Shown: positions 14,638 through 34,550 of the stretch, in pieces
How positions within the stretch are numbered: the first letter of the stretch is position 1
How the letters are laid out: each line of letters opens with the position of its first letter
Source of the DNA: Aeromicrobium stalagmiti
GTDB lineage: Bacteria; Actinomycetota; Actinomycetes; Propionibacteriales; Nocardioidaceae
Assembly: GCF_013283745.1 (NCBI RefSeq)
Contig: NZ_JABSTZ010000001.1
Span: forward strand, 62,001-126,000
DNA length: 64,000 bases
Direction of reading: 5' to 3'
The notes under the pieces: generated by a model
Told to the model about the DNA's origin: nothing
The model's database searches: none
The model's input: the letters and a program-made list of their open reading frames with translations, nothing else
Program-made: the position numbers and the translations under genes

Positions 14638-14643
14638 GGGCGC

Positions 14644-16194: not shown

Positions 16195-16262
16195 CTGCTC
16201 CTCGGCGTCTCGTGACGTCAGCCACCTCGTCGCGGCCGTTCATCGACCGGTAGCGGCGCCCG

Positions 16263-18527
16263 TCAGACCGTGCTGGTGTCGACCAAGGGCTTCAGCCCGT
16301 GCTGGCGGAACCGTTGCAGCGTCGTCGCGAGATCCTCCGCCATGCCGTAGAGGTAGCCCTGAACGTGCGTCGCTCCCGCATCACGCAGCACCGGCACCTC
16401 GTCGGGCCGGGTGATGCCCTCGGCCACGACCCAGAAGCCGAGCTCGTTGAGCAACGACGTCGCCCGCGTCACGACGAGGGTCTGGCGGGGATCGGCGAGG
16501 TCGGTCAGCAGGCTGCGGTCGAGCTTCACGATGTCGACTCGCGGCAGGTAGAGCGAGCCGAGGCCCGCGAATCCCGATCCGAAGTCGTCGATCGCGATCT
16601 GCGCACCCGCGTCCTGCAGCCGGCGAGCGACCTCGGCGTTGGCGTCGGACCACTCCCCGATCGAGCCCTCGGAGATCTCGACGACGACCGTCAGCCCGTG
16701 CACGGCCCTGCAGTCGGCCAGACGCTGCATCAGCGGTGACCACACGAGCATCTGCTCCAGCTCGAGGTTGATCGAGAACACGGCAAGCTCCGGCACGTGC
16801 TCGCGGCAGGCGAGCATCGACGCGACCGCCTGGTCCAGCACGAGCAGCGTCATGTCGTCGAGCAGGTTGAGCCGGATCGCGGACTCCACGATGACCGGTG
16901 GCGGGATCGACCCCATCTGCGGATCCGTGCAGCGCACCAGCGCCTCGAGCCCCCGCACCTCGTCGATCTGCAGGTTGATGATCGGCTGGTACGCGGTCCA
17001 GAGGCTGCCTGACGTGATCGCGTGCCGGACGGCCTCGTCGATGCGGGACGTCACCTCGGAGTCACCGGCGTGGACGGCCCGCTTGCGCTGGTACATCTGC
17101 TGGTCCGCGGCCCGGACCAGGGCCTCGAGGTTGTCGTCGGCGCTCGAGGAGAGGGCAGAGCCGATGCTCGCTCGCAGGCGCAGGGTGCTGCGACCGACCA
17201 GCACCGGCTCCGCGATGAGCCGGGTCAACCGGTCACACTCGACCGTGAGCTCGGCGTAGTCGCGGACGTCACGGACGAGCACCGCGAACTCGTCGCCGCC
17301 GTAGCGCGTGACCGACCGGGCGCCGCCGGTGTGGGCGATCAGCCGCTGGGCCAGCTCCTGGATAGCGGCATCCCCCGCGATGTGTCCGTAGCGGTCGTTG
17401 ATCTCCTTGAAGCCGTCGAGGTCGATGAAGACGATCGCGATCGACTCCCCCGGCCGGCGGGACCGGCTGACCTCGGCCAGGATCTCGCGGAAGTAGGTGT
17501 AGGTCGACAGGCCCGTGAGCCCGTCGGTGTTGGCACGGTCTTGCAGACCCTCGATCTGCGCGGCCTCCCGCCTGGCCGTGTCAGCCATGTTGGCGAGCGC
17601 CTCGAGCACGTGCCGCTCGACCTGGGTGAACGGCAGGTCGCCGGACGTCCGCTCGGCGACGACGTAGCGACCGTCGGTCAGCGGCACGCTCAGGTCCCAC
17701 CCCGACCCGGGATCGTCGCTCACGACGACCTTCTCGACCCGCAGGCCCTGGGCTCCCCAGGTGCTGAGGGACTCGTCGATCTGCTCGCGACGCCAGGGCA
17801 TCGCGACCGCAGCACCCGAGAGCGCCGTGACGCTGCGGTTGAGCTCGACGTTGCGCATCGTCAGGCCGACGACGACCGCCGTCAGGCCCAGCATCGCCAC
17901 CACGAAGCTCGGCATGACTGGCAGCGGTATGCCTGCCTCGACCCGTCGCAGGGCGGCGAAGACGCACCCGATGTAGAAGACCGCGAGACCGACGATGAAC
18001 GTCCACGTCCAGCGCAGGCGCAGCGTGTGGCCGTCGTGCGTCGGCGCGGCGAAGATGCTGCGCACGATCTCGAGCGCGGAGATCACCAGGAAGTAGGCAG
18101 CCAGTCCCGCGAAGACGCGATCGAACGGCGGGTAGCCGACGTCGGTGATCTCGGCGACGCGCAGCAGGACCGCTCCGCCCAGCACCTGGATCGCCGCGCG
18201 GAACTGTCCGGCCGTCTCGTCGCGGTGGAACACGAGGTACGACGCCGCCACGAGCACGGCCCAGATCGGCAGGATGGAGGCCTGTCGCTCGACATCTGCG
18301 GCGAACAGGACGGCGGCGGCAGCGCCGAGCGTCAGCTCGGTCTGGCCCCGCGAGATCGTGATCTGTGTGCGGACTGCCACCGGCACCAGCAGCAGGGCGA
18401 TGATCGCGACGACGTTGAGGTCAGGCGGCCCGGTGTGCCACTGGATGCTGCGGAACACGACGGCGAGGACGGCGACGGCCATGACCACGAGCTCGTAGCG
18501 GCGTTCGCCGCGCGTGCGCATCGTCAT
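16263..18527 (-). CDS. Membrane GGDEF-EAL protein (c-di-GMP cyclase/phosphodiesterase)
   Basis: A 754-residue protein: about eight hydrophobic segments (residues 14-225), a GAF-like linker (about 240-325), GGDEF (about 333-485, RYGGDEF at 408-414) and EAL (about 498-745, EAL at 528-530, DDFGSGFAGL, KLDRSLL, AEGI). Both signature motifs are intact, so synthesis and hydrolysis of c-di-GMP are both possible. No RxxD inhibitory site is present before GGDEF. It lies 57 bp downstream of, and in the same direction as, a polysaccharide operon whose synthase carries an MshEN-like domain, so a local signalling role is a reasonable inference. Confidence 0.93.
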   Translation of the reverse strand: MTMRTRGERRYELVVMAVAVLAVVFRSIQWHTGPPDLNVVAIIALLLVPVAVRTQITISRGQTELTLGAAAAVLFAADVERQASILPIWAVLVAASYLVFHRDETAGQFRAAIQVLGGAVLLRVAEITDVGYPPFDRVFAGLAAYFLVISALEIVRSIFAAPTHDGHTLRLRWTWTFIVGLAVFYIGCVFAALRRVEAGIPLPVMPSFVVAMLGLTAVVVGLTMRNVELNRSVTALSGAAVAMPWRREQIDESLSTWGAQGLRVEKVVVSDDPGSGWDLSVPLTDGRYVVAERTSGDLPFTQVERHVLEALANMADTARREAAQIEGLQDRANTDGLTGLSTYTYFREILAEVSRSRRPGESIAIVFIDLDGFKEINDRYGHIAGDAAIQELAQRLIAHTGGARSVTRYGGDEFAVLVRDVRDYAELTVECDRLTRLIAEPVLVGRSTLRLRASIGSALSSSADDNLEALVRAADQQMYQRKRAVHAGDSEVTSRIDEAVRHAITSGSLWTAYQPIINLQIDEVRGLEALVRCTDPQMGSIPPPVIVESAIRLNLLDDMTLLVLDQAVASMLACREHVPELAVFSINLELEQMLVWSPLMQRLADCRAVHGLTVVVEISEGSIGEWSDANAEVARRLQDAGAQIAIDDFGSGFAGLGSLYLPRVDIVKLDRSLLTDLADPRQTLVVTRATSLLNELGFWVVAEGITRPDEVPVLRDAGATHVQGYLYGMAEDLATTLQRFRQHGLKPLVDTSTV

Positions 18528-18584
18528 GCCATCCCCCTTCCCGATCGTCCCGAGCCTGGTGCTCCATCGTATTTTCGGTCCGGG

Positions 18585-19727
18585 TCAGGCCGGAGTCACC
18601 GCGATCGCGACCTCGCAGTAGTTCTTGGTCGGGTCGACGTCGTTGCGCTTGCGCCACGACGAGATCATCAGCTCGACCTTGCGCCCGCCGTTGGTCCACA
18701 CGGCCCGCACCATGCCGTTCTCGGGCAGGTCGATCGGCACCAGTGTCCGGGACTCGTCGTCGAACGGGTGCTCCTGGGTGATGACGTGGTCCTCGACGTC
18801 GCCCTCGCCCTCGATGGTCTGCTCCCACAGGGTCGAGGTCGAGTAGCTCGGCGTGATCGTGACCTCGGCGGGCGCCTTCTGGCCCGGCGCGCACACGACG
18901 TTCACCGTGCCCATGCCGTTGATCTCGCCGGTCGCGGACGACCTCACCGCTGCGTCGGCATCACCGTGCCAGTTGACCGCCACGCTGGTGCTGGGACCCG
19001 TGAGCTTGCGGGCGCTGACGCCGACCCGGACCCTCTTGCCGCCGAGGGTGATCGTCTCGGAGTCGGCCTCCTTGACCGCGCGGGTGCCGTCGGCTCCGTA
19101 CGAGCCGAGGCGCGTCGTGAACGTCCCCCGCACGTCGCAGCGCGACTTCGACGTCGGGCCCTTGTAGCCGCTCCAGTCCCACGTCAGGTAAAAGGAGGTG
19201 GCCGGCGGGATGCTCGCCGCCGCTGCGGGCTTGGCCTGGCCGGGTCGCTGGCTGATGACGCCACGGATGTAGCCGCTCGACGAGTTCTCGATGGGTCCGT
19301 ACTTGTTGAAGCCCTCGCGGGCGGTCGCGCCGGTGCCACCGTCGCCGGGATCGTCGGCGACGGAGTACCTGTAGACGCGCGCGGTCTTGACCGCGACCGA
19401 CTGGTAGGGGACGCCACCTGAGGTCTTGGTCTGGTAGACCGCCGACCACATCTGGGTCTCCTTGGTCCGGTCGCTCGGGCGGATCTCCAGCCACGTGCGG
19501 TCGCGGCTGCACACCAGCTGGGCCGTGCCGATGCCCGGCACGACGACCGTCGCGGTGGCGTGGCCCCTGTAGGACGAGCCGTACCAGGCGATGCTCGCGT
19601 CCTGACGCAGCAGCGTCGGGTCGCCGGCGGCCTGAGCCGTGGCCGTCGTCGCGGCCACCAGCCCGGTCGCCGCGAGCACTGCGGTGACCGCACCGGCCAC
19701 GACGCGCCACCTCAGCGAGGTGGTCAT
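18585..19727 (-). CDS. Secreted protein of unknown function
   Basis: A 380-residue protein with a clear signal peptide (WRVVAGAVTAVLAATGLVAA, then ATAQAAGD around residue 34). The mature part is rich in beta-forming, Ser/Thr/Gly segments, with four Cys residues (in LVCSRD, SRCDVRG, NVVCAPG, NYCEVA) that may form disulfides. No catalytic motif recognised. Its ATG overlaps the stop of the preceding PBP-like lipoprotein (ATGA), so it is the last tightly coupled gene of the polysaccharide operon before the GGDEF-EAL gene. Confidence 0.85.
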   Translation of the reverse strand: MTTSLRWRVVAGAVTAVLAATGLVAATTATAQAAGDPTLLRQDASIAWYGSSYRGHATATVVVPGIGTAQLVCSRDRTWLEIRPSDRTKETQMWSAVYQTKTSGGVPYQSVAVKTARVYRYSVADDPGDGGTGATAREGFNKYGPIENSSSGYIRGVISQRPGQAKPAAAASIPPATSFYLTWDWSGYKGPTSKSRCDVRGTFTTRLGSYGADGTRAVKEADSETITLGGKRVRVGVSARKLTGPSTSVAVNWHGDADAAVRSSATGEINGMGTVNVVCAPGQKAPAEVTITPSYSTSTLWEQTIEGEGDVEDHVITQEHPFDDESRTLVPIDLPENGMVRAVWTNGGRKVELMISSWRKRNDVDPTKNYCEVAIAVTPA

Positions 19728-21136
19728 CGTGCCGGCCCGGGTGACGAGCTCGCGTCGCCGGCCGTGCCGTCGAGCGAGAAGAGGGTCGGCTTCTTCTCAC
19801 CCGTGGCCCAGGCCCGCTGCTCGGCGATGATGTCGGCCGTCGGCGCCACCAAGGCGGCGGACGTGGCCAGCTTCGTGGCCTGGTCGAGATAGGTGGTCAT
19901 GAAGTCCTTCACCTCACCGCGCTCCAGCGAGCGGGTCGTGGTCGTCACCAGCACGGGGCGGGACAAGGGGTACTGCCCCTCGGACACCGTCCGCTGGCTG
20001 GGAAAGATGCAGTCGGTCGCACCCTCGGTCGAGATCTCGAACGGGCGCAGCTGCTCCTTCTCGAGCTCGTAGTAGTCGAACTGGAACAGTCCGACGCGAC
20101 CCTGGCGCGCGGCCAGGTGTCTCTGCGCGCGCGCCGACTTCTTGGCCGCCGACTCGGCGTCCTTCACATCGGCCTTCAGCGCGTTGTACGCGACGAGGGC
20201 GTCGTCGCGCACGGGGTAGGCATCGTCCTGCCGCGCCTGGTCCTTGGCCTGCTGGGCCGCCGAGCGTCCGTCGGCGATCCCCTTCTGCCGGTCCTCCTCG
20301 GCGGCGGTCACCTCGGCCTCCGCCTCCGCCAGCGTCGTACGGGCCGCGGCGGCCTCCTTGCGGAGAGCCGTCACCGCCTGCTTGCGCGAGGAGAGGTAGG
20401 CCGCCTGCTCGATGTCGTCCTTGGTGCCGATGACGTCCGTCAGCGTGTCGAGCTCGTTGTCGTGGGCGCGGTAGTCCGACCGGAGGTCGCTGAGCACCGC
20501 GTTGGCCCGGTCGAGCCCGAGGTCTCCGAAGAGAGCGAATCCCGCCGCCTCGACCGAGGGCCCGGCGATCACCAGCGGCTGGTCGGCGAACTTCAGCTGA
20601 CGCCAGCTCGTGTAGGGCGAGCCGGCGCGGAACATCGTCCGCACCTGCTCCAGGTCGATGCAGTCGCCACCGACGTCGGACTCGGCCTTGATCGCGAGCA
20701 CCAACGCGTCGGACGCGACCTGGAACTGCACGACGTCGAGACCGTTGTCCTGGCAGGCCGCGAGCTCCTTCTTGCTGATGTGCCGGATCGAGTCGACGAG
20801 GTCGACCTTGCCGGAGCACAGGTCGGCGAATCCCTGGAGGACGCCGTCGGTGCCGATCTCGACCTGGGTCGTCGCACCGCTGGAGCTGTAGTCGTCTGCT
20901 GCCTGCGTGGTGATGCTGGCCGTGCGCCCACCAGCGAGGTCGACCCGGCCGGTGGGTCGCTCCGGCAGCGCGGCGAGGTTGCGGGCGATCTCCTTCTTGC
21001 GGGCTGCCTCGTCGCGGACCGCTGCGGCGTTCTCACGGCTCACGGTCTTCTCGGCCGAGTCGTTGCCGCCGCTGCACGCCCCCAGGAACAGCAGGCACAC
21101 GGCGGCGCTCACGATCAGCGATCGACGGTTGCTCAT
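19724..21136 (-). CDS. PstS-like substrate-binding lipoprotein with coiled-coil insertion
   Basis: A 470-residue lipoprotein (lipobox FLGAC, Cys21). Residues 60-235 and 345-430 resemble the two halves of a phosphate-type (PstS-like) periplasmic-binding protein: EIGTDGVLQGFADLCSGKVDLVDS, then FDYYELEKEQLRPFEI and TDCIFPSQRTVSEGQYPLSRP. Between them residues about 250-345 are a long Ala/Glu/Lys/Gln-rich coiled coil, which ordinary PstS lacks. No pst transporter genes are nearby; the gene sits in a polysaccharide operon one base after its upstream neighbour. A scaffold or sensor role is possible; phosphate binding is not established. Confidence 0.8.
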   Translation of the reverse strand: MSNRRSLIVSAAVCLLFLGACSGGNDSAEKTVSRENAAAVRDEAARKKEIARNLAALPERPTGRVDLAGGRTASITTQAADDYSSSGATTQVEIGTDGVLQGFADLCSGKVDLVDSIRHISKKELAACQDNGLDVVQFQVASDALVLAIKAESDVGGDCIDLEQVRTMFRAGSPYTSWRQLKFADQPLVIAGPSVEAAGFALFGDLGLDRANAVLSDLRSDYRAHDNELDTLTDVIGTKDDIEQAAYLSSRKQAVTALRKEAAAARTTLAEAEAEVTAAEEDRQKGIADGRSAAQQAKDQARQDDAYPVRDDALVAYNALKADVKDAESAAKKSARAQRHLAARQGRVGLFQFDYYELEKEQLRPFEISTEGATDCIFPSQRTVSEGQYPLSRPVLVTTTTRSLERGEVKDFMTTYLDQATKLATSAALVAPTADIIAEQRAWATGEKKPTLFSLDGTAGDASSSPGPAR

Positions 21137-21137
21137 G

Positions 21138-22277
21138 TCACTGACCTGCCTTGGTGGTGGTCGCGGGGTACTCGTACGTCGAGCCGAGCTTGACGACCTC
21201 GAAGTCGTCGAGCGTCAGGCCCTGCAGCTCGTTGCCGACCAGCAGGGACGACGAGACGTCGCGCTGGGCGTAGAGCGTCGGCACGGCGGCACGATCGACG
21301 ACGATCGCGCCGTACGTCCGCAGGGCCGCGACGATCGCGTCGCCGACACGGCGCTGCTGCGCGGTCAGCTTGATCTTCTTGCCGGTGTCCGGATCGGTCG
21401 CCCGTCGCAGGACGACGTCGGCCTTGAGCCGGATGCGAGCCCCCTCGGGCAGCGAGGACGAACGGCCGTTGCCGTCGGTCGACGACGCGGGCCGGACGAA
21501 GACACCGGTCGCGGCACCCGGCACGCTGATCGCCAGGGCATGGCTGATCTCGCCGGCCTGCAGCTCGCCGGGACGGATCAGGCCACCGATGAGAGGCAGC
21601 CCCGACCCACGGGCCGAGACCTCCTGGGGCTTGCCGAAGCCTGCGCCGGCCAGCGACCAACGCCGCATGTACTGATAGCTGATCGTGCCGTCGGACTCGC
21701 GACGCCCGCGCCACAGGTCGTAGGCGTAGCGGCCGTCCTCGTCGATGATCGAGTACCAGCCGTCGTAGCGGGGGTCGGGATCGACGTCGGCCGGCACCGG
21801 GAGGCGTCCACCCGGGGGCTGGTCGCCACAGTCGGCCTGCCGGCACCGCATGACGGTCGACGGACCGCCCTGCACGACCGGCGTCGTCCACCGGGTCGTG
21901 TTGACGAACAGGCCCTCCTCACCGGTCTGGTACTGCGTGACCGGACGTCCACCGTCGGTCTGCTCGATGACGCCGACGCTCTCCTTGGCACGCTTGAGCA
22001 GCGCCTCGGAGCGGGGATCGGTCGAGGAGGTGTCGACCGGTGTGTTCCACGGCGAGTCTGCCGCGAAGAAGAGCTTCTCGGGCTTCGCGTCGGTGGCCTC
22101 GGCCGGAACCGTTGCTCCGGCGGTGGCCGGCGACGTCGTCGCGGCAGCGCTCGCACTGGGGCTCGGCGTCGCGCCGTCCGACGACGAGTCGTTGCTGCAC
22201 GCGGCGAGCGCCGTCACGACCAATGTCGAGACGGCAGCTCCGCGCAGTGCAGTCGTCAGGTATCCGTGGATGAGCAT
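21138..22277 (-). CDS. Lipoprotein of unknown function
   Basis: A 379-residue lipoprotein (lipobox TALAAC, Cys27) followed by a Ser/Thr/Ala/Pro linker to about residue 65. The globular part contains FFAADSPWNTPVDT, DGWYSIIDEDGRYAYDLWRG, GLPLIGGLIRPGELQAGEISHAL and ALRTYGAIVVDRA. I recall this segment set from uncharacterised secreted actinobacterial proteins near polysaccharide genes but know no assigned activity. One base separates it from the PBP-like gene downstream. Confidence 0.82.
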   Translation of the reverse strand: MLIHGYLTTALRGAAVSTLVVTALAACSNDSSSDGATPSPSASAAATTSPATAGATVPAEATDAKPEKLFFAADSPWNTPVDTSSTDPRSEALLKRAKESVGVIEQTDGGRPVTQYQTGEEGLFVNTTRWTTPVVQGGPSTVMRCRQADCGDQPPGGRLPVPADVDPDPRYDGWYSIIDEDGRYAYDLWRGRRESDGTISYQYMRRWSLAGAGFGKPQEVSARGSGLPLIGGLIRPGELQAGEISHALAISVPGAATGVFVRPASSTDGNGRSSSLPEGARIRLKADVVLRRATDPDTGKKIKLTAQQRRVGDAIVAALRTYGAIVVDRAAVPTLYAQRDVSSSLLVGNELQGLTLDDFEVVKLGSTYEYPATTTKAGQ

Positions 22278-22286
22278 GGCCGCGGT

Positions 22287-23060
22287 TCAGCCCCGCGCCG
22301 TGCGTCGGGAGGGCGCCTGCACCGCGGTGCCCGCGACGCTCGCCGCGGCGGCGTCCTCGGCGGTCTGCGTCAGGGCGGTGATGAAGCGCGCGAGGTTGCG
22401 GCGGGCGACGTCGGGACGATCGGCGTCGGCAAGGATCTGCTCGGCCTGCCCGTACAGCTGGTCGGTGAGCTCCACCGCGACGCGCAGCCGCTCGGCGACG
22501 AGCCGGTCGGCCTCGAGGCGGGCGTCGGCCCGGATCTTGTCGGCGTCGGCCTGTGCAGCGTCGAGCACGCTCTGGGCCTCGATCGCCGCCTGGGTCGAGA
22601 CCGTCGCCGCACGGCGCGCGGCGTCCGCGTCGACGCTCGCGAGGAACTCCGACGCGGCACTGCGGGCGTCGAGCATGACCTTCGTGACGTAGTGGCCGAG
22701 GTCGTCGACCGAGGTGGACGCCTGCGGCAGCGCCGGCGCAGGCATTGCCGGCGCAGGCAGCTTCGGCGCGGGGCGCACCGGTGTCGCCAGCGTGGCCTCG
22801 CTGGCCTCGCGACGCGCGCGCAGCTGGGCGGTCACCGAGGCCGTGTCGGAGGCGGCTGCCGACTCCGCGGCGACGGGTTCGGGATCGGTCTGACCGGCCT
22901 CGGACGCCAAGGCGACGTCGACATCGTCCTCGGCTGCCGGCTTCTGCGGCGCGACGGGGGCGAGACCGCGGGAGTCACGGCTCGCGTTCACGGCGTCGAG
23001 CACCGAGGGAGCCGGGGTCAGCGGCTGGGCGTCCTTCTTCTTGGCGGGCCTGGCACTCAT
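22287..23060 (-). CDS. Coiled-coil (DivIVA-like) cytoplasmic protein
   Basis: A 257-residue protein without signal peptide or membrane segment. The first 110 residues are Pro/Ala-rich and probably disordered; residues about 118-235 (VDDLGHYVTKVMLDARSAAS onward, with long AQADADKIRADARLEADRL-type runs) form a heptad-rich coiled coil like that of DivIVA/Wag31-related proteins. Its ATG overlaps the membrane-protein stop (ATGA). It may localise or scaffold the synthase at the membrane; this is inference. Confidence 0.8.
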   Translation of the reverse strand: MSARPAKKKDAQPLTPAPSVLDAVNASRDSRGLAPVAPQKPAAEDDVDVALASEAGQTDPEPVAAESAAASDTASVTAQLRARREASEATLATPVRPAPKLPAPAMPAPALPQASTSVDDLGHYVTKVMLDARSAASEFLASVDADAARRAATVSTQAAIEAQSVLDAAQADADKIRADARLEADRLVAERLRVAVELTDQLYGQAEQILADADRPDVARRNLARFITALTQTAEDAAAASVAGTAVQAPSRRTARG

Positions 23061-24766
23061 GGCGCTTCCTCTCCCTCGGCGGGTGTGACCTGGTCGGACA
23101 CCGCGACGAGCACATATCGGTCGGTCGTGTAGACGGCTTGGAGCGCGGGGTCGGTCCCCGTCGCCGCGGTGGGATAGAGCTGGCTCAGGCGGTCGGTCGC
23201 CGTGCTGCGCGACAGCAGCAGGTAGCGGACCCCGGCGCCCGGCTTGCGGGCAGCTCGGATCCACGCCCCGTCGCCGCGGTCGACCCGGTCGAAGAACAGC
23301 TGGGGGCGTCCGGTCAGCAGCATGACGCCGAACGTCTGCGAGTTGTCGGTGAGGATCGAGCCCTCGGCGGTCACGTTGCGCCGGATGTAGCCGGCCATGG
23401 CCTGCTCCGAGATGATGCCGACCTCCTGGCCGGCGGCCGTGATCTCACCCTCCTGGCTGCTGGCCGTGCGGATGCCCTGGATGAACGCCGACTCGAGGTT
23501 CTGGTTGGCGTAGCGAGTCATCTCGAAGCCGGTGAAGACGCCACTGGCGACCAGCCCGACGATCACGAGCATCGCCCCCGCGGCGCGGCCCGCGGCGAGC
23601 GACCGCACGAGCCAGCACGCGCCTGCCACCGTGAGGACGAGCACCGGGAGACCGTCGCGCATGAGCACGTGCGACCCGTCGTTGCGCACGAAGACCGCGA
23701 CGCCCGGCATCACGACGGCGGCGCCGACGCAGATCGCCAGCCAGCCCGCGAGCTCGTCGCGGCGACGGACGGCTGCCAGCACGAGCAACGGCACCACAAC
23801 GACCGTGATCGGGCTCGTGGTCAGGACGACCTCGCCGAGATCACGCAGCACCTCGGTCAGGCGGTCACTGGTCGCCAGGCCCGCACTGGGCGCCTCGCCC
23901 GACACCGAGCGGGTCACCCAGGCGACGGGGTTGCCCAGGATCAGGCCGTTGAACACCATCCACAGGGCCATGACGTAGACCACGGGGCTGGCGAAGCCGA
24001 CCACCGTGCCCTCGACCTCGGCCTGTCGAGCGCCGTGGCGCTGCAGCACGAAGCCGATCAGGAACGCCGCGAGACCTGCCCACACGAGCGAGCCGTAGCC
24101 CGCCAGACCGGCGACGGAGAAGGTGATGCCGGCGATCAGGACGTAGCGGATCTGGGCCGTCACGAACCACTTCACGACGCTCGAGACGCCGGCCAGCATG
24201 AGGCTGACCCAGACGATCTGGCGTGAGCCCGTCGAGGCGTAGAGGGCGACGAGCGGGTTGAGGGCCAGGACCGCGAGGATCGCGATGCGCCACGGACCGG
24301 GGATGAGGCAGCGGCGCAGCAGGCTGTTGAGCGAGATCGCGGCGACGCCGGCGAAGATTGCCGAGCTGATCGGCAGCGCGACGAGCGAACGGGCGAGGTC
24401 GCTCGAGACCGCCAACGGCGTCAGGACCAGCACGGACAGCGGCGGGTAGTCGAAGCCGATCGCGGTGAGCTTGGCCGGGTTGTTGTGCAACGCCATCAGC
24501 GCGCGGTTCATCCGGTCGAGCGACTCGAAGCCCACGACGTGCAGGCCGGTGACGACCCACGTGCCGAGCAGGGAGTAGCCGATGACCGTGACGAGGAAGA
24601 CCAGCCAGTTCTCGACCCGGTGGTTGCCGTCGGACCGCGGCTGCGGCGACTGCACCATGTCCGGACGCACGTTCTGGCGCACCTGGACCGGTCGGTCGGC
24701 ATAGATCGGCAGCGGGATGCCGTGCGGCTCCTCGGTGCGCTCGGCCGCAGACGTGTCGATCGTCAT
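23057..24766 (-). CDS. Polytopic membrane protein, GT-C glycosyltransferase-like
   Basis: A 569-residue membrane protein with about 10-11 helices after a 50-residue cytoplasmic N-terminus. The loop after the first helix contains GFDYPPLSVLVLTPLAV, resembling the first-loop region of GT-C mannosyl/arabinosyl-type transferases, and there is a C-terminal extracytoplasmic domain (about 430-569). The catalytic acidic pair is not obvious, so it may be a transferase or a transport/assembly partner. Starts at 24766, overlapping the GT2 synthase stop. Confidence 0.78.
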   Translation of the reverse strand: MTIDTSAAERTEEPHGIPLPIYADRPVQVRQNVRPDMVQSPQPRSDGNHRVENWLVFLVTVIGYSLLGTWVVTGLHVVGFESLDRMNRALMALHNNPAKLTAIGFDYPPLSVLVLTPLAVSSDLARSLVALPISSAIFAGVAAISLNSLLRRCLIPGPWRIAILAVLALNPLVALYASTGSRQIVWVSLMLAGVSSVVKWFVTAQIRYVLIAGITFSVAGLAGYGSLVWAGLAAFLIGFVLQRHGARQAEVEGTVVGFASPVVYVMALWMVFNGLILGNPVAWVTRSVSGEAPSAGLATSDRLTEVLRDLGEVVLTTSPITVVVVPLLVLAAVRRRDELAGWLAICVGAAVVMPGVAVFVRNDGSHVLMRDGLPVLVLTVAGACWLVRSLAAGRAAGAMLVIVGLVASGVFTGFEMTRYANQNLESAFIQGIRTASSQEGEITAAGQEVGIISEQAMAGYIRRNVTAEGSILTDNSQTFGVMLLTGRPQLFFDRVDRGDGAWIRAARKPGAGVRYLLLSRSTATDRLSQLYPTAATGTDPALQAVYTTDRYVLVAVSDQVTPAEGEEAP

Positions 24767-26922
24767 GACGTCACCTGCTGCTGCGACTCGGTGTGCTCGG
24801 TGTCGAGACCGTGCTCGGTCTTCTCCCAGTAGAACGGGTTCGTGAACAGCTGGATGAAGCCCTTCCAGGCCGCCCAGCTCATCAGACCCCAGTAGAGGGG
24901 CGTCAGCAGCGCCGACTTCGTCAGCTCGAAGTAGCCGCGTTGCATGCTGCCGGCGACGTTGAGATAGACGAAGACGAAGTTGCCGATGAACAGCATCGAG
25001 CTCGCGGCATAGAACACGAAGCCCGGGAACAGCGACTCGATGAAGCCCCACTGCGTCAGCGCGAACAACGTGGTGAGGGCCCAGAAGATCGGGTTGAGCA
25101 GGAAGATGAAGGTGCCACCGACCAGCAGGTTGAAGCTGATGAAGTTCTTCAGACCCATGTCCTTCAGGGTCTTGAACGGGTTGCGCATGTGGACGAGCCA
25201 CGTCTGCATGTAGCCCTTGATCCAGCGGCTGCGCTGACGGACCCAGTTGGGCAGCTGGGAGTTGGCCTCCTCCAGCGTCGTGGAGTCCATCATCGAGGTG
25301 CGGTAGCCCGCACGGGCCAGCCGGATGCCGAGATCGGCGTCCTCGGTCACGTTGTAGGGGTCCCACGCACCGAGCTCGCGCAGACGGGCGGTGATGAAGT
25401 GGTTGGACGTGCCGCCGAGCGGGATCGGGACGTCGTCGCCGTCGAGCCCCGGCAGGATCAGGTCGTAGTGCATCGAGTACTCGGACGAGAACCACTTCGT
25501 CAGCAGGTTCTGGTCCTGGTTGAAGTAGTTGAGCTTGGCCTGGATGCACGTGACACGCGGCTCGGCCTTCGAGAAGGCGATGACAGCCTTCTTGAGCTGG
25601 TCCGGATCGGGTCGGTCCTCGGCGTCGTAGATGACGGTGTACTTGCCCTCGGCCTGGGTGAGGCCGTAGTTGCACGCCTTGGGCTTGGTCTTGGGGTTGC
25701 TGTCAGGGACCACCACGAGGCGGAAGTGCGGAGGGAGCCCCAGGTCGCGGATCGCCTCGATCGTCTCGGTGTCCTCCTCCTCGCACAGGAGCTTCACGTC
25801 GAGCTTGGTCTTGGGGTAGTCGAGCCCGTTGACGCCCGTGACGAGCCGGTTGACGATCGACGCCTCGCGGAACAGCGGCACGAGGATCGTGTACATCGGC
25901 AGGGTGCGCTCGTCGACGTCGGCGACCTCCTGGGCCGTCACGTCGGTCTCGAAGTGGTGGCCGAGCGCACGGAACGTCAGGCGAAACTTGTAGAGCGACA
26001 CCGCCAGGTAGTAGACGCTCGCCGCGGCGACCAGGCCGATCAGCGTGTTCTTGGGCCAGATGACGCCGCAGACGATGATCGCGACCAGCACCGAGATGAA
26101 GAACGTCTTCTGAGCCTTGGTCGCGACGATGTACGCCGAGTTCTCCGGGCTGAGCTCCATCAGCGAGTGCGTGGCGAACTGCGAGTAGTCGTCCTGGTAG
26201 ACCCGCTGCAGCAGAGTGTCGATCGACGAGCGCGTCGCGAGCAGCTCGCGCACCTCGAGCTCGCCGAGGTAGCGGCCGACGACCGAGACCTCGTGGTCGT
26301 CGAGCGGGCGGGACACCGCGAGGAAGACGACGTCGCCGTCGCGCGCGACCGGCACGCAGCGCAGGGCGTTGGCGGCCTGCTCCGGCAGCAGCAGCGCGAT
26401 CTCGCGGTCGGGGTTGAAGCCGTCGAGGCTGACCCGCTGGACCTTGAACTTCTCGGCCAGCACCGCCACCAGGTCGTCCTCGGTGATCTTGCCGCTGGCG
26501 ACGAGGATCTCGCCGAGCTGGGCTCCCGTGCGGGCCTGCTCGACCAAGGCCTCCTCGACGTCGCGCTCGTCGACCAGGCCGAGGCTGGCCAGGAACTCGC
26601 CCGTGCGCAACGGCACGGCCGAGCCGGCGTCAGCGTCGGCGAACAGCAGGGCCGGACCGCGGCTGAACGCGATGTCGAGCGCGGCCGAGATCTCGGCCGG
26701 GTCGTGCTGCACGAGGCGCACGTCGTGGCCCGTCAGCTGCTTGAGCACCTGGGCCGCGACCGCGTTGTCCGTCGAGGGCGACGCGACCGACAGCAGGTTG
26801 CCGGAGAGCTCGTAGGGGATGACGGAGAAGGCGCGGCAGATCTGCTGCGGCACGAGCCGTTCGATGTTCGGGTTGGGGTGGTCGCCCAGGGCACTGTGGC
26901 GGTCGGACTCGGTCATCGACAT
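24763..26922 (-). CDS. GT2 polysaccharide synthase with N-terminal MshEN-like (c-di-GMP-binding) region
   Basis: A 719-residue synthase. Residues 22-90 and 172-245 resemble the GspE/MshE N-terminal fold. Residues 106-158 fit the published MshEN signature RLGxxLxxxGx6LxxxLxxQ twice: R106, G108, L111, G115, V122, L126, Q129, a 5-residue spacer, then Q135, L136, G137, L140, G144, L151, L155, K158. After two helices (about 273-310) comes a family 2 transferase with YDAED (432-436), TEDADLG (526-532) and QRSRW (563-567), then 4-5 helices. Similar domain pairing (GT2 plus MshEN) is known in E. coli NfrB, a c-di-GMP-dependent exopolysaccharide synthase. The ATG at 26922 follows the upstream stop by one base. 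The polymer made is unknown. Confidence 0.9.
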   Translation of the reverse strand: MSMTESDRHSALGDHPNPNIERLVPQQICRAFSVIPYELSGNLLSVASPSTDNAVAAQVLKQLTGHDVRLVQHDPAEISAALDIAFSRGPALLFADADAGSAVPLRTGEFLASLGLVDERDVEEALVEQARTGAQLGEILVASGKITEDDLVAVLAEKFKVQRVSLDGFNPDREIALLLPEQAANALRCVPVARDGDVVFLAVSRPLDDHEVSVVGRYLGELEVRELLATRSSIDTLLQRVYQDDYSQFATHSLMELSPENSAYIVATKAQKTFFISVLVAIIVCGVIWPKNTLIGLVAAASVYYLAVSLYKFRLTFRALGHHFETDVTAQEVADVDERTLPMYTILVPLFREASIVNRLVTGVNGLDYPKTKLDVKLLCEEEDTETIEAIRDLGLPPHFRLVVVPDSNPKTKPKACNYGLTQAEGKYTVIYDAEDRPDPDQLKKAVIAFSKAEPRVTCIQAKLNYFNQDQNLLTKWFSSEYSMHYDLILPGLDGDDVPIPLGGTSNHFITARLRELGAWDPYNVTEDADLGIRLARAGYRTSMMDSTTLEEANSQLPNWVRQRSRWIKGYMQTWLVHMRNPFKTLKDMGLKNFISFNLLVGGTFIFLLNPIFWALTTLFALTQWGFIESLFPGFVFYAASSMLFIGNFVFVYLNVAGSMQRGYFELTKSALLTPLYWGLMSWAAWKGFIQLFTNPFYWEKTEHGLDTEHTESQQQVTS

Positions 26923-26923
26923 G

Positions 26924-27187
26924 TCAGCCACCGGTCCCGAATCGGTAGGCGGGACGATCGGCGTCGTCAGCGTCGGCCGACGGCTCGACGGCCGCAGCCG
27001 GCTTGGACGTGCGCGCCGAGCTGCCCGGCCACAGCACGTAGAGGAGGAACGCCCCACCCAGCACGATGAGCGGCGCCATCAGGAAGCCGACGAACACCGC
27101 GGTCGACAGCACCAGGGTCGTCACAACACCGACGAACGCGGCGGGTCCGGACGCACGCGTGCGCCCGGTCGCTTCGAAGGACTCCAT
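26924..27187 (-). CDS. Small membrane protein
   Basis: An 87-residue protein with one long or two short hydrophobic segments (about 15-52: AAFVGVVTTLVLSTAVFVGF, PLIVLGGAFLLYVLW) and a charged, disordered C-terminus. First gene of the polysaccharide operon, with AGGGAG about 9 nt upstream of the ATG, preceded by a U-rich leader. Possibly an accessory subunit of the synthase; no family recognised. Confidence 0.75.
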   Translation of the reverse strand: MESFEATGRTRASGPAAFVGVVTTLVLSTAVFVGFLMAPLIVLGGAFLLYVLWPGSSARTSKPAAAVEPSADADDADRPAYRFGTGG

Positions 27188-27204
27188 GGTCCGTAGCTCC
27201 CTCT

Positions 27205-27218
27205 AAAAAAAAGAAAAA
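27205..27218 (-). promoter_or_regulatory. U-rich leader directly upstream of the operon's first ribosome-binding site
   Basis: On the minus strand the run is TTTTTCTTTTTTTT, immediately before AGAGGGAG. Such a T-run is exceptional in this GC-rich sequence. Only a weak 4-bp stem (GCAC/GTGT) precedes it, so an attenuator-type terminator is possible but not convincing; a protein-binding leader is an alternative. Confidence 0.35.
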
Positions 27219-27299
27219 CACTCCCGCGTGCAGCCTACGGCCGACACCGGTCGTGACGATTCTTTTTATCTAGTACTTCGTGACTACTTTTCTCCGCCA

Positions 27300-27331
27300 T
27301 TGGTCCCGAATCGCGTCGTTTGGACCCGAAT
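27300..27331. promoter_or_regulatory. Direct repeat TTGGwCCCGAAT x2, possible operator
   Basis: TTGGTCCCGAAT (27300-27311) and TTGGACCCGAAT (27320-27331) are 20 bp apart, i.e. on the same face of the helix, just upstream of an AT-rich stretch (27260-27295) that probably holds the promoter of the polysaccharide operon and just after the GH5 stop. Probably a regulator site; the regulator is unknown. Confidence 0.4.
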
Positions 27332-27341
27332 GAGACGCAGA

Positions 27342-28511
27342 TCACCTGCCGGAGAGCCCCAGGAGGTGCGAGCGGAACGTCGAGCCGTACGGAGTCGTCG
27401 GCTCGCCCGCCGGGCCGGTGATGAGTGCCATCGGGTCGTCGGCGTGGTCCCACCACACCCACGCGAGGTAGCCGATCCCCCGCTCGTCGGCCCATGCCAT
27501 GTAGTCGGCGAGGTGGGGCAATCCGGGATCGTCCTGACCGATCTCGCCGGTCAGCAGCGGCACCTCGTCGGCGACCGGAGCGATCTCCGCGGCCCAGCAG
27601 GCCTCGTCCTTGCACCTCTGGAAGTTGTAGTTGTGGAAGCTCGCGACGAGCTGGTCGTCGTCGGGCCGGTGGTCGAGCCACTGGCTGAGGTCGTTGGCGT
27701 AGTCGAGCCCCGCCAGCATGATCGGCTGCTCCGCGTCCTCCCCGCGGATCGCCGACACGACGGCCGCCATGCCCTGGACCGGATAGGTACGTCCGGTCAG
27801 CTCACTCTTGTCGTCCTCGACCGGTGCCGCGCAGCCGCCGTCGCGCCAGCACGTCCAGTCGAGCTCGAACGCGTAGGACGCGGTGACCTCGTCGTAGCGC
27901 GAGTAGGGCTCGTTGAACGCGTCGAACATGACGGACCGGTCGTCGGCGTACTCGGCCGCGATCGACCGCCAGAACTCGATCGACCCCGCGTCGGGCATCG
28001 CGATGTTGCCGAACTCGTCCTCGGTCTCGCGCTTACGGCTCTGCAGGTCGAGGATCACGACGATTCGCTGCGCGTGCAGCGCATCGACGAACCTGGCCAC
28101 CTCGGCCCGGTAGCCCTCGGCCGTCCGCTCGGTCTCGGCGTCGCTCACAGGTGCGCCGCGGGTGCCGAGCCAGCAGTCCTGGTTGAGCGGCAGCCGCACC
28201 GTGTCGACCGACCAGCTCGCGATGGCGGCGGCGATCTGGTCGGCGTCGGCCGCCGAGGTGATCGACGAGTAGCCCCAACCCTGCGTGCACGCGTACTCAA
28301 AGCTCGACCAGTTCACGCCGTGAGGTACCCAGGTGTCGCCCGTGCGCGCGTCGACCAGGCGGTTGCCGTCGACGCGGGGCTCGACCGGGCCACCCATGTC
28401 GGCCTTGGCGGGGACGGCGGCATCGCCGGGGTCGGTGACCTTCCATGCGACGCCGCCGGCCACGGCGGCGACGAGCAGGACCATGATCACGATCCGGGGC
28501 AGACGGCCCAT
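27342..28511 (-). CDS. Glycoside hydrolase family 5-like (endoglucanase/cellulase), membrane-anchored
   Basis: A 389-residue protein with an N-terminal signal anchor (IVIMVLLVAAVAGGVA) and a TIM-barrel GH5-type domain. HGVNWSSFEY and VDTVRLPLNQDCWLG are the early barrel signatures; the acid/base Glu is E201 (FNEPY) and the nucleophile E323 (LTGEIGQ), with SFHNYNF (His-x-Tyr) at 291-297. The ATG at 28511 has GGAGGAG upstream; the reading further upstream is not supported. It lies upstream of a GT2 operon in the same direction, as endoglucanases often do in cellulose-type operons. Confidence 0.9.
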   Translation of the reverse strand: MGRLPRIVIMVLLVAAVAGGVAWKVTDPGDAAVPAKADMGGPVEPRVDGNRLVDARTGDTWVPHGVNWSSFEYACTQGWGYSSITSAADADQIAAAIASWSVDTVRLPLNQDCWLGTRGAPVSDAETERTAEGYRAEVARFVDALHAQRIVVILDLQSRKRETEDEFGNIAMPDAGSIEFWRSIAAEYADDRSVMFDAFNEPYSRYDEVTASYAFELDWTCWRDGGCAAPVEDDKSELTGRTYPVQGMAAVVSAIRGEDAEQPIMLAGLDYANDLSQWLDHRPDDDQLVASFHNYNFQRCKDEACWAAEIAPVADEVPLLTGEIGQDDPGLPHLADYMAWADERGIGYLAWVWWDHADDPMALITGPAGEPTTPYGSTFRSHLLGLSGR

Positions 28512-28633
28512 GCAGGTGCTCCTCCAGGTGAGGTTCACATCGTAGGGTTCAGTGGGACCACGGGACGCCATCGCCCATTCACGGTGATAATGGAAGATGT
28601 ACGGGTCCACGACCATCGGGAGGGAGATCACGC

Positions 28634-29923
28634 ATGCGCTCGACCACACGCCGACGCACCGCGCTGCTCGCGTCGCTGGCCTTCGCCGCCACGAGCCTGG
28701 GCCTCACGTCCTCCCCGGTCGAGGCGGCTGAGTGCACCGAGGGCCCTTCGTGCGTCATCGTCAACGTGGTGAGGACGGTCGACGGCGACACCACGACGCT
28801 CTACTCAGAAGAGGTCTCGACCGCCGAGATCGCCGAGTGGTCGGACTTCGACGAGTCACGCCAGTACTACAAGCGGCGCAACGTCACAGGCACGGTCTCC
28901 GAGGGACCGCGAGTCGGCAAGAACACCGGCATCTCCCTCTACGAGCTGCTCGAGCGAGTCAATGCGCTCCACCCTGACAAGGCCAAGGCAGCGACATTCT
29001 CCGAGACGCCCAATGCCCGCAAGATCCCCTCCGTGCTGTCCGACGCCGATCTGGTCGACCCCGCCGATCCGGGCAAGGACGGCTATCCGTTCGACGACAG
29101 CCTCGCTCCGGCGGTCTACGTCTCGGGAAGTCGGATCGGTTACGTCCGACCGCTGCGAGACGCCGACAAGGACGTCAACATCACCGACATCTTCAAGGTG
29201 TCGGGCGCCCTCGAGCTCACCTTCCACACCACCGGCAAGCTCCTCGAGCCGGTCGTGAGCGTCGGGAGCACCAGCGTCGACACCAAGGCCAAGAGCGCCT
29301 TCTCGATCACCTACGCCAAGAAGCCCGGCACCCGCATCATCAAGACGCGATGGGACTTCGGCGACGGCTCGACCAAGGGCACCAAGCGCGACGAGCCCAC
29401 CAAGACGTACGCCAAGAAGGGCACCTACCCGGTCTCGGTCACCGTCTACGGCGCCAACGGCTCGTACGGCCGGTCGGCACCTGTCGAGATGAAGGTCGAC
29501 AACCCGCCCAAGGCGCCGAGCTCCGGCACCGGCGGGGGCACCGGCACGGGTGGCCTGGGCAGCACCGGCGGCTACGTCCCGCCCTACGACCCGGGCACCA
29601 TCGACCCGCCGTCGGACGACCCGCCTGCCGAGGACGTGCCCGACGACGAGCCGACCGACGACATCCCCGTCGACGACGGGCTCGAGGAGGTCGAGGGCTA
29701 CGTGCTCGCCGGCGCCGAGATCGTCCCCGGCGGAACGCCCGAGGCGATCCCCGGCACCCAGGACTCGAGCCAGCCGGCGCCCGCCACGCAGGAAGCACTC
29801 CGCAAGCGCATCGCCACCTGGATCGTCGCGGCGCTCGCGATCGCCCTGCTGGTCGGGGCCGGTGCGGCGAGTGAGACACGATGGTTCCGAACCCGACTGC
29901 ACCACCTCAGGAGACGTGCATGA
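28634..29923 (+). CDS. Secreted PKD-domain protein with C-terminal membrane anchor
   Basis: A 429-residue protein: signal peptide (about 1-32), an N-terminal domain (about 35-200) containing RRNVTGTVSEGP and NTGISLYELLERV, which is reminiscent of the oxidoreductase molybdopterin-binding fold but without a clear Cys ligand, a PKD domain (about 205-290; RWDFGDGS), a Gly/Pro/Asp-rich linker and one C-terminal helix (IATWIVAALAIALLVGAGAA). It starts a three-gene operon with an ExbB/MotA-like channel and a DUF2149 protein, transcribed away from the GH5 gene. Confidence 0.82.
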   Translation: MRSTTRRRTALLASLAFAATSLGLTSSPVEAAECTEGPSCVIVNVVRTVDGDTTTLYSEEVSTAEIAEWSDFDESRQYYKRRNVTGTVSEGPRVGKNTGISLYELLERVNALHPDKAKAATFSETPNARKIPSVLSDADLVDPADPGKDGYPFDDSLAPAVYVSGSRIGYVRPLRDADKDVNITDIFKVSGALELTFHTTGKLLEPVVSVGSTSVDTKAKSAFSITYAKKPGTRIIKTRWDFGDGSTKGTKRDEPTKTYAKKGTYPVSVTVYGANGSYGRSAPVEMKVDNPPKAPSSGTGGGTGTGGLGSTGGYVPPYDPGTIDPPSDDPPAEDVPDDEPTDDIPVDDGLEEVEGYVLAGAEIVPGGTPEAIPGTQDSSQPAPATQEALRKRIATWIVAALAIALLVGAGAASETRWFRTRLHHLRRRA

Positions 29924-30678
29924 GCGACAAGATCTACGACATCATCTTCCGCGTCGCGGAGGTGCTCGAGCTGCCGGTGGTCATCATCACCCTGCTCGCG
30001 CTCGCCGCCGCGCTCGTGGAGGTAGGTGCGTTCATCACCGAGCTCGTCAAGCGCCGCGGTCGGACGTTCTCCGCGCTCGCCAAGGCCGGCGCCTCCGCCC
30101 GCCGCGCGGTCGACGAGCGTCGCATGGACGAGGCGTCGGCGCTCCTGCAGACGGTCGCGTGGTCCGCCCCGGTCGGCAAGGCCTTCAAGGTGCTGGTCAG
30201 CGCGGTCGACAAGCCCGGCGCCGACACGCGCATCGCCAAGGAGCTCGCCGACTTCGACTTCGGGCGTCAGGCCCGCCTCAGCCGCACCCGCCTGCTGGTG
30301 CGCCTCGGCCCCGCCCTCGGACTCATGGGCACCCTGATCCCGCTCGCCCCGGCCCTCGACGGACTCGCCCGCGGCGACGTCGACTCCCTGACCGAGAACC
30401 TGCGCCTCGCCTTCAGCATCACGGTGCTCGGCATCCTGATCGGCGTCATCGCCCTCGCCCTGTCCCTCTACCGCGAGCGCCTCTACGGCCAGGACTTCTC
30501 CGACCTTGAGTACGTCGCGGCGATCCTCACCGACGACGGGTCGGCGGCCGCCTCGATCTCGCCGGTCGCCCCCCCGGCTCCGTCACGGCCGGCCACCGCG
30601 ACGACCGACACGGTCACGGTCCCGCCGCTGGTGCCGCCCGCCCCGGCCTCGGCCCCGAGGACGGACTTCTCGTCATGA
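29920..30678 (+). CDS. MotA/TolQ/ExbB proton channel family protein
   Basis: A 252-residue membrane protein with three helices (about 18-38, 125-155, 165-190). GPALGLMGTLIPLAPALDGLARGD near residues 128-152 is the family signature of the proton-channel helices (quoted in part: GLMGTLIPLAPAL). The C-terminal 55 residues are Pro/Ala-rich. The ATG at 29920 overlaps the PKD gene stop, and its own stop overlaps the DUF2149 gene; an ATG at 29881 is in frame but lies inside the PKD gene. Probably forms an energy-coupling pair with the DUF2149 protein. Confidence 0.9.
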   Translation: MSDKIYDIIFRVAEVLELPVVIITLLALAAALVEVGAFITELVKRRGRTFSALAKAGASARRAVDERRMDEASALLQTVAWSAPVGKAFKVLVSAVDKPGADTRIAKELADFDFGRQARLSRTRLLVRLGPALGLMGTLIPLAPALDGLARGDVDSLTENLRLAFSITVLGILIGVIALALSLYRERLYGQDFSDLEYVAAILTDDGSAAASISPVAPPAPSRPATATTDTVTVPPLVPPAPASAPRTDFSS

Positions 30679-31121
30679 TCAAGGTCACCCCGCGCGCCCG
30701 GGTGCACCAGGACCGGGCCGGCGACCCGCTCGACGGCCTCGTCAACATGTTCGACATCGGCATCGTGCTGGCCGTCGGGTTCCTGATCGCGGCGCTGTCG
30801 TCGCTCGGGCTGTCCGACGCCGTCAAGGACGGCGGGCTGACCAAGCCGACGCTGGGCGAGGTCACGATCCGGCCCGGCGAGACGTTGGAGCCCGTGCCCG
30901 AGGAGGGCGTCAAGACCGTCGGTCGCGGCACGCCCGTCGGCACCGTCTATCGCCTGGCGGACGGCCGCCTCGTCTATGTCACCGGCGACGGCACCACCGC
31001 GCCGGTCACGCCCGACACGACGCCGACGGACCCGTCGGCCACTGACGGTGTCCCGACCCAGCCGACACCGACGGTGCCCACCGACCTGCCGACCGCGCCG
31101 ACCCCGACGACCGCCCCCTGA
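30675..31121 (+). CDS. DUF2149 domain protein (ExbD/MotB-like partner)
   Basis: A 148-residue protein with one N-terminal helix and the DUF2149 signature DPLDGLVNMFDIGIVLAVGF (residues 18-37), followed by a short extracytoplasmic domain and a Thr/Pro-rich tail. The single helix with an Asp (NMFDIG) recalls ExbD/MotB partners of ExbB-type channels. Overlaps the channel gene (ATGA). What the pair energises is unknown; the PKD protein encoded first is the obvious client. Confidence 0.88.
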   Translation: MIKVTPRARVHQDRAGDPLDGLVNMFDIGIVLAVGFLIAALSSLGLSDAVKDGGLTKPTLGEVTIRPGETLEPVPEEGVKTVGRGTPVGTVYRLADGRLVYVTGDGTTAPVTPDTTPTDPSATDGVPTQPTPTVPTDLPTAPTPTTAP

Positions 31122-31127
31122 CGCAGC

Positions 31128-31736
31128 TCAGGTGCGCCGTTCGGCTCCCTCGAGAGCCAGGCCGACGATCCACGCGATGTCGGCCGCGGCCTCGCTCGGC
31201 CGCTTCGACGGCCGGGTGAGGGCCGACAGCACCAGCCGCACGACAGTCTCGACGGCGACCTCGAGCTCGGCGGGCGTGAGCGGCGTGGGGGCGTAGAGCT
31301 CCTCGATGCTCTGACGGACCACCAGCACCGCGGCCTCGACGATCTCACCGGACTCCGTCGTCAGGATCTGCAGCAGGTCGGTGTCCTGCTCCCCCGGCAG
31401 CGAGCCGACGATCGTGCGGACCAGGACGCTCTGCTCACCCAGCTCGAGCACCCCCTCGCACGCCGAGCGGATGCCGTCGACGAGGCTGCGCTCCGCGGTC
31501 ATCCGGCGGCGGACGACGTCGAGGAACCGCTCGAGCTCACGCAGCGCCAGCTGCTCGGCGAGCCCGTGCTTGGTGCCGAACTCGTTGTAGACCGTCTGCC
31601 GGCTGACCCCGGCGGCCTCGCCGATGCGGGCCATCGTGACCGAGGTCCACCCGGTCGCCTCGATCATGACCTGCGCGGCGTCGAGCAGCCGGACCCGGAC
31701 GGACCCCGAGGTGGTGCTGCGGACGCCCGTTGTCAC
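31128..31736 (-). CDS. alkU: TetR-family regulator of the alkane operon
   Basis: A 202-residue TetR regulator: helix-turn-helix at about residues 20-65 (ARIGEAAGVSRQTVYNEFGTKHGL), then an all-helical ligand domain. Last gene of the alkB operon, with its start overlapping the rubredoxin reductase stop. TetR genes end alkB operons in Rhodococcus, Dietzia and relatives, where the protein represses the operon and is released by fatty acids or their CoA esters. Its probable operator is the palindrome at 34551-34577. Confidence 0.88.
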   Translation of the reverse strand: MTTGVRSTTSGSVRVRLLDAAQVMIEATGWTSVTMARIGEAAGVSRQTVYNEFGTKHGLAEQLALRELERFLDVVRRRMTAERSLVDGIRSACEGVLELGEQSVLVRTIVGSLPGEQDTDLLQILTTESGEIVEAAVLVVRQSIEELYAPTPLTPAELEVAVETVVRLVLSALTRPSKRPSEAAADIAWIVGLALEGAERRT

Positions 31737-32926: not shown

Positions 32927-32933
32927 CGAGCGT

Positions 32934-33098
32934 TCAGAGCTCCACCATCACGAAGTCGGCCTTGGCGGCACCGCAGTCGGGGCACGTCCAGTCGTCGGGG
33001 ATGTCCTCCCACTTCGTGCCGGGCGGGATGTTCTCCTCCTCCCACCCCTCGGCCTCGTCGTAGACGAACCCACACTGCTGGCACTCCCAGCGCTTCAT
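32934..33098 (-). CDS. rubB: Rubredoxin, AlkG2 type
   Basis: A 54-residue rubredoxin with two CxxC iron ligands ([13 protein letters not shown] and CPDCGAAK) and the DIPDDWTCP core. The pattern is that of AlkG2-type rubredoxins, which transfer electrons to alkane hydroxylase. The ATG at 33098 overlaps the stop of the first rubredoxin; a longer frame to 33215 is a shadow. Confidence 0.93.
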
Positions 33099-33328
33099 GC
33101 CTGATCTCCCTTGGTGCGTGTCTCGGCGGCGATGATGTTGCCGTCCTGGTCGTTGTGCTCGAACTCCTCGATCGGCAGGAAGTCGACCTGCTCGCGCACG
33201 CCGCAGTCGGGGCACGTCCAGTCAGGATCGATGTCCGCGAACGCGGTGCCGGCCGGCCAGCCCTCGCGCGGGTTGCCGTGCCCCTCGTCGTAGACGTACT
33301 CGCAGTTGGGGCAGATGAACTGGCTCAC
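33095..33328 (-). CDS. rubA: Rubredoxin, AlkG1 type
   Basis: A 77-residue rubredoxin with [13 protein letters not shown] and CPDCGVRE ligands, an insertion with [10 protein letters not shown], and an acidic C-terminal extension. It looks like the AlkG1 type, which in studied systems cannot replace AlkG2 in alkane hydroxylation. The start is the GTG at 33328, overlapping the alkB stop (GTGA); the long open frame upstream is antisense-like noise within alkB. Confidence 0.9.
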
Positions 33329-34518: not shown

Positions 34519-34550
34519 GATGTTCCTCCTTGCGCACCCTGGGAGGAGTG

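Follow-up and report, generated by a model that had tools for sequence, protein, structure and literature searches.

An N-terminal MshEN domain with altered cyclic di-GMP contact positions in a probable GT2 polysaccharide synthase of Aeromicrobium stalagmiti

The window analysed here, a 64,000-nucleotide stretch of the Aeromicrobium stalagmiti genome, carries a closely packed gene cluster around a probable polysaccharide synthase, P0001, in which an MshEN region precedes a glycosyltransferase family 2 (GT2) domain (Table 1). A preliminary description of this DNA had proposed both parts from their motifs. The two 24-residue MshEN units that it placed at residues 106-129 and 135-158 were confirmed, with four glycines and five of six key hydrophobic residues kept. 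They lie in a four-helix N-subdomain followed by an alpha/beta C-subdomain, the arrangement of the MshEN fold, and structure prediction, the check then suggested, yields a model that superposes on 5htl across residues 104-242. The GT2 signatures reported as intact were likewise located (D433 and D436 of DxD, TED at 526-528, QxxRW at 563-567) and, with the C-terminal membrane helices, are those of processive GT2 enzymes of the BcsA, NfrB and hyaluronan synthase kind. An MshEN-fold domain N-terminal to a processive-type GT2 domain thus occurs in an actinobacterium, among accessory genes unlike nfrBA-ybcH. Ahead of the two units lies a further C-subdomain without 24-residue motifs, of which residues 18-85 are predicted, mostly with high confidence, as helices and strands. 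Five clostridial relatives (L054, L064, L070, L073, L076) carry extra MshEN motif units near the N-terminus, ahead of the unit aligned with P0001, and the motif-less residues 16-87 may be the leftover of a first MshEN unit of that kind.

The site for cyclic diguanylate (c-di-GMP) was scored over 12 MshE contact positions, a list drawn up for this analysis, with hydrophobic residues treated as interchangeable and arginine likewise with lysine. P0001 scores 9 of 12. In motif I, R9, L10, G11, L25, L29 and Q32 of MshE read R, T, G, V, L and Q; R106, G108, G115, L126 and Q129 are retained, V122 replaces L25 and T107 replaces L10. In motif II, R38, L39, G40, L54, L58 and Q61 read Q, L, G, L, L and K; L136, G137, G144, L151 and L155 are retained, Q135 replaces R38 and K158 replaces Q61. 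The glycines next after the L10 and L39 positions (G11 and G40 of MshE) are therefore both present, as G108 and G137. With residue roles assigned after PMC5013675, the Gua1 half of the site is kept (R106, G108, Q129) and the Gua2 half is damaged (T107, Q135, K158), so that the switch most likely responds to c-di-GMP, more weakly. The reading favoured here, at about an even chance, is that P0001 is a Gram-positive exopolysaccharide synthase with an inherited MshEN switch whose partly eroded site still answers c-di-GMP with reduced strength; the enzyme may be slipping from c-di-GMP control. The earlier version, a fully active NfrB-like synthase gated through an ordinary high-affinity site, is unlikely. 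It draws on the kept glycines and hydrophobic residues and on the NCBIfam c-di-GMP motif model, which P0001 passes; it has to accommodate the changes L10T, R38Q and Q61K. The same model, moreover, passes at 48.2 bits a sister protein that has lost R9, G11, Q32, R38 and Q61, and its score is therefore no test of binding. This serves as a warning that a c-di-GMP motif profile score can remain above cut-off after the contact residues are lost.

A scan of the genome collection returned at least 571 confirmed relatives among 589 candidate stretches, of which 80 were kept. Family members among the matches listed come from Nocardioides, Solirubrobacterales, Patulibacter, Paenibacillus, Cohnella, Sporolactobacillus, Clostridium, Aquificaceae, Thermoflexus and others. 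Counted over whole genomes, with the host included where it belongs to the set, a relative is present in 2 of 58 close relatives, 45 of 391 genomes of the order, 26 of 396 of the phylum and 48 of 196 genomes of the neighbouring genus Nocardioides (E 1e-100). The 111 distinct rows, P0001 included, divide into 58 with site scores of 11-12, 17 with 9-10 (P0001 among them) and 36 with 7 or less. The last are four Microbacteriaceae rows and the 32 rows of a Nocardioides clade; among the 32 are a row labelled Jatrophihabitans, another from an unnamed actinomycete and a copy from genome G026. Most members outside these two groups score 10-12. When the GT2 part alone is used for the tree, P0001 groups as sister to the clade of 32 (ultrafast bootstrap 99, SH-like approximate likelihood ratio test 96), all of whose sequences score 5-7, and 11 Solirubrobacterales-type sequences, eight scoring 11-12 and three scoring 10, fall outside both. 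Because these outside sequences score 10-12, the ancestral site was probably intact; P0001 would then carry a partly eroded form and the sister clade a rewritten one. Of the c-di-GMP-gated synthase proposed earlier, the MshEN-GT2 fusion stands, and the gating is put in doubt by the three altered contacts and the low scores of the sisters.

In the sister clade, Q (91%) stands at R9, A (75%) at G11, Y (75%) at Q32 and P (100%) at R38, so that the residues kept in P0001 as R106, G108 and Q129 are mostly lost; G137 is retained by nearly all. Two more distant Nocardioides relatives (L116 and L119, from G320 and G337), 38-39% identical, retain G11, Q32 and G40. Pairwise identity within the sister clade is 75% in the MshEN N-subdomain, 61% in the extra C-subdomain, 66% in the MshEN C-subdomain, 57% in the first two membrane helices, 86% in the glycosyltransferase core and 83% in the C-terminal helices. 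As the best conserved part outside the core and C-terminal helices, the rewritten N-subdomain seems unlike a relic free to decay. Contact positions are not significantly enriched among the conserved positions changed in this clade (p 0.083 at best).

The supply of c-di-GMP was gauged from GGDEF matches. The host has 12, and twelve genomes with relatives scoring 10-12 have 16, 4, 6, 13, 11, 9, 9, 12, 8, 15, 4 and 6; left out of this comparison were G600 and G694 (scores 9 and 10; 53 and 46 matches) and G320 and G337 (both score 9; 9 and 6 matches). In the Nocardioides genomes at most 17 candidates were scored per genome. Among the 38 Nocardioides ortholog carriers, every one with a rewritten site, 20 have no GGDEF match and the remaining 18 have five or fewer. 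No match was found in 61 of 148 Nocardioides genomes without a synthase match, nor in 2 of 10 with a more distant relative, some of these matched in the GT part only. The scarcity in carriers has a one-sided p of 0.024 against no-match Nocardioides and a p of 6e-8 against the twelve high-score genomes, both values ignoring kinship among carriers that form one clade. G026, a contaminated genome with a rewritten site yet seven GGDEF matches, is a contrary case. That many carriers of the rewritten site show no c-di-GMP synthase match fits a tentative and rather doubtful proposal for the Nocardioidaceae: an ancestral c-di-GMP-gated synthase was uncoupled, and its pocket, rewritten to Q, A, Y or H, and P at R9, G11, Q32 and R38 and kept under constraint, reads another ligand or partner. 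If this is true, P0001 is a surviving half-way form that records the order of events as a second-messenger receptor is taken apart or put to new use. In the host genome no PilZ match was found and P0001 is the sole MshEN protein, which makes it the only recognisable c-di-GMP receptor of these two classes, the two searched for.

Published tolerance data point both ways for the P0001 site. In MshE, where L10 clusters with L54 and L58, changing any single conserved hydrophobic residue led to a more than ten-fold loss, changes at R9 and Q32 to a loss of at most about five-fold, and the G11L and G40I variants bound poorly, if at all (PMC5013675). In NfrB most leucine changes were without effect on phage infection, G491L abolished it and G519S reduced it in part (PMC8669472); another group found L490A to have a moderate effect (PMC8669469). 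The known non-binder XpsE lacks G11, G40 and further residues (PMC5013675), unlike P0001, which has both glycines.

Several observations weigh against a site that still responds. T107 stands at L10 of MshE, a conserved-hydrophobic position, and the published relaxed MshEN pattern has no match in either 24-mer of P0001, failing at T107 in motif I and at Q135 and K145 in motif II. The sister clade is without the contact site, so that binding may have gone before its split from P0001. In PilF GSPII-A one motif is near-perfect and the other degenerate, and this domain apparently does not bind (PMC11731258). Rfam gave no match in window positions 16000-31000, hence no known c-di-GMP riboswitch there, and the nearby GGDEF-EAL gene, older at the site than the operon (see below), could be close by accident. 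A serious contender, at somewhat under an even chance, is accordingly a non-binding MshEN domain that acts as a structural or docking part or takes another ligand, on a synthase that is constitutive or otherwise controlled. The three altered contacts, the well-conserved but rewritten N-subdomain of the 32 sisters, the 20 carriers without GGDEF matches and the PilF precedent all suit it, while the retention in P0001 of residues that its sisters mostly lost, and of G137, the abundance of GGDEF proteins in the host and the lack of significant contact enrichment among the changed sites do not. A domain that is still responsive, if more weakly, is placed slightly ahead of a blind one.

Table 1. Features of the synthase locus, in window positions; genes without a name are referred to by their first coordinate.
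Feature	Position	Strand	Remarks
GT2 polysaccharide synthase P0001, 719 aa	24763..26922	-	N-terminal MshEN region
P0001 residues 16-87, extra MshEN C-subdomain	26662..26877	-	no 24-residue motifs; Pfam PF05157 E 4.9e-8
P0001 residues 106-129, motif I	26536..26607	-	
P0001 residues 135-158, motif II	26449..26520	-	
P0001 residues 160-245, MshEN C-subdomain	26188..26445	-	Pfam PF05157 E 1.5e-15
P0001 residues 340-580, GT2 catalytic domain	25183..25905	-	membrane helices either side
GH5 glycoside hydrolase	27342..28571	-	N-terminal hydrophobic anchor; start provisional, frame open to 28649
Small protein, 87 aa	26924..27187	-	one long hydrophobic stretch; ends 1 nt ahead of synthase start
Polytopic membrane protein, 569 aa	23057..24766	-	11 hydrophobic peaks; start overlaps synthase stop
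Low-complexity protein, 257 aa	22287..23060	-	perhaps coiled coil
Conserved lipoprotein-like protein	21138..22277	-	no family
PstS-like solute-binding-fold protein (PBP), 470 aa	19724..21136	-	Pfam PF12849; PDB 4jwo E 1.4e-23; conserved in operon
Protein of 380 aa	18585..19727	-	hydrophobic N-terminal stretch; no family; last gene of operon
Resident GGDEF-EAL membrane protein	16263..18527	-	Pfam; RYGGDEF and EAL signatures; 57 nt downstream of operon
10-kb block, GH5 to 18585 gene	18542..28570		absent at same site in same-genus genome

From the small protein gene, which begins at 27187, to the 18585 gene the genes run head to tail, with 4-nt overlaps at the synthase/membrane protein, membrane protein/22287 and PBP/18585 joints, and with 1, 9 and 1 nt separating the genes at the remaining joints; a single transcript is therefore likely. 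The GH5 assignment rests on Pfam Cellulase (E 1.6e-24) and on GH5 cellulases in the PDB (E 1.4e-4 to 5.9e-4). In most Nocardioides-clade loci the GH5 gene lies upstream of the synthase and the small protein gene adjoins the synthase; the small protein may be a PgaD-like helper. The 569-residue membrane protein has no Pfam match and is GT-C-like by inference only; its relatives adjoin the synthase or lie close to it in Solirubrobacterales loci and, as weaker matches (E down to 1e-7), in most of the Bacillota loci fetched. The 22287 gene has no relatives among the fetched loci, and a weak, sub-threshold DivIVA match of a longer frame is absent from the 257-residue one. The 21138 protein has 50 invariant columns across 27 sequences and a model with a predicted local distance difference test score of 83.9, for which no clear structural match was found. 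Of the 16 loci of the Nocardioides clade with about 7-8 kb of flanking DNA, 12 carry the full set of genes for GH5, the small protein, the membrane protein, 21138, PBP and 18585; L016 lacks the small protein, L013 GH5, L015 GH5 and the 18585 gene, and L018 has only the two membrane proteins. Solirubrobacterales-type loci hold the membrane protein in 10 of 10 cases and the 21138 and PBP genes in 9 of 10. Over all loci fetched at that stage (some genomes twice), GH5 was counted in 32, the small protein in 37, and the 21138 and PBP genes in 26 each.

If P0001 works as BcsA and NfrB do, a sugar nucleotide would enter the cytosolic GT2 domain, polymerisation would take place at the inner face, and the growing chain would be threaded through the synthase's own membrane helices. 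The MshEN domain, just ahead of the first helices and presumably derived from ancestral forms whose c-di-GMP site was intact, would act as a GT2 switch as in NfrB, altering access to the GT2 domain or its activity when c-di-GMP binds. As there is no outer membrane, an exporter of the NfrA or BcsC type would not be needed. GH5, the polytopic membrane protein and the secreted proteins could trim, decorate or anchor the product outside, with GH5 perhaps trimming the chain as proposed for CcsZ (PMC7710045). That the GT2 domain instead places single sugar residues on an acceptor such as a lipid or wall polymer, with GH5 incidental, is very improbable: QxxRW, TED and several C-terminal membrane helices occur as in BcsA and hyaluronan synthases, and the presence of GH5 in the conserved operon resembles that of CcsZ in the clostridial cellulose locus (PMC7710045).

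Among known systems, NfrB of E. coli also joins a GT2 domain with DxD/TED/QxxRW-type signatures to MshEN in one membrane protein; its MshEN, however, is C-terminal and that of P0001 N-terminal, identity over the GT2 part is about 24%, and the contact site is partly lost in P0001. The NfrB equivalog NF008411 gives P0001 57.3 bits against a cut-off of 1170, with the best stretch in the MshEN part (residues 108-257). The difference from NfrB in domain placement and partner noted in the preliminary description holds, and no NfrA or YbcH partner was recognised among the operon genes with Pfam and NCBIfam. Its claim of a distinct type applies to domain order and operon; it is narrowed by an MshEN-glycosyltransferase fusion stated in 2016 (PMC5013675) and a Gram-positive NfrB homologue, in Eggerthella, named in 2021 (PMC8669469), the year in which NfrB was shown to bind c-di-GMP (PMC8669469, PMC8669472). 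The literature search found no description of the N-terminal MshEN-GT2 family or of its site loss. Clostridial ccsZABHI is likewise a Gram-positive GT2 locus that includes a GH5 hydrolase and lacks an outer-membrane exporter, but CcsA is described with a PilZ domain (PMC7710045) where P0001 has MshEN; no MBOAT or DHHW genes are among the operon's Pfam hits, and other secreted proteins stand there instead. With the MshEN or GSPII domains of MshE, PilB and PilF, P0001 shares the fold, the two 24-residue units, the 5-residue spacer and the C-subdomain; it differs in having no ATPase, in the motif-less C-subdomain in front and in contacts T107, Q135 and K158. In BcsA the regulatory domain is a C-terminal PilZ rather than an N-terminal MshEN, and no BcsB was recognised in the operon. 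The N-terminal-MshEN GT2 proteins of Nocardioides, Solirubrobacterales, Paenibacillus, Sporolactobacillus, Clostridium and Aquificaceae are of the same family and domain order as P0001. In actinobacteria, little is understood of how c-di-GMP governs surface polymers. The family supplies natural relatives that are otherwise similar synthases but whose MshEN sites are intact, partly eroded or rewritten. Direct comparison of these could test if MshEN gates GT2 and by what means, and what becomes of a receptor after loss of its signal.

The operon lies in a block that is missing at this site from two other genomes of the genus. In G012 (locus L175) the alignment covers window positions 14581-18541 and 28571-34576, which are separated there by about 65 bp, and in G003 the flanks are about 0.7 kb apart. 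Of 36 same-genus genomes other than that of the host, a single one, the doubtful G026, carries the synthase. Gain of the block in the host, beside a resident GGDEF-EAL gene, is the most likely history, the alternative being its loss from the other genomes; GC content, overall and at third codon positions, marks no clear outlier among its genes. Beyond the host, the GGDEF-EAL gene has homologues in 3 of 24 genomes of the genus, and no synthase match was found in those three. In two Solirubrobacterales loci (L019, L026) a GGDEF-EAL-like gene lies one reading frame upstream of the synthase.

Divergent from the operon (28634-31121, forward strand) are genes for a PKD-domain protein, a MotA/TolQ/ExbB-family membrane protein and a DUF2149 protein, a region that aligns at the same site in G012; the last two are perhaps an ExbB/ExbD-like pair in a Gram-positive. 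Farther off (326-6923, reverse strand), an allantoinase-like amidohydrolase, a uricase, a formamidase-family protein and their neighbours, three genes of which were scanned, form what looks like a cluster for purine breakdown.

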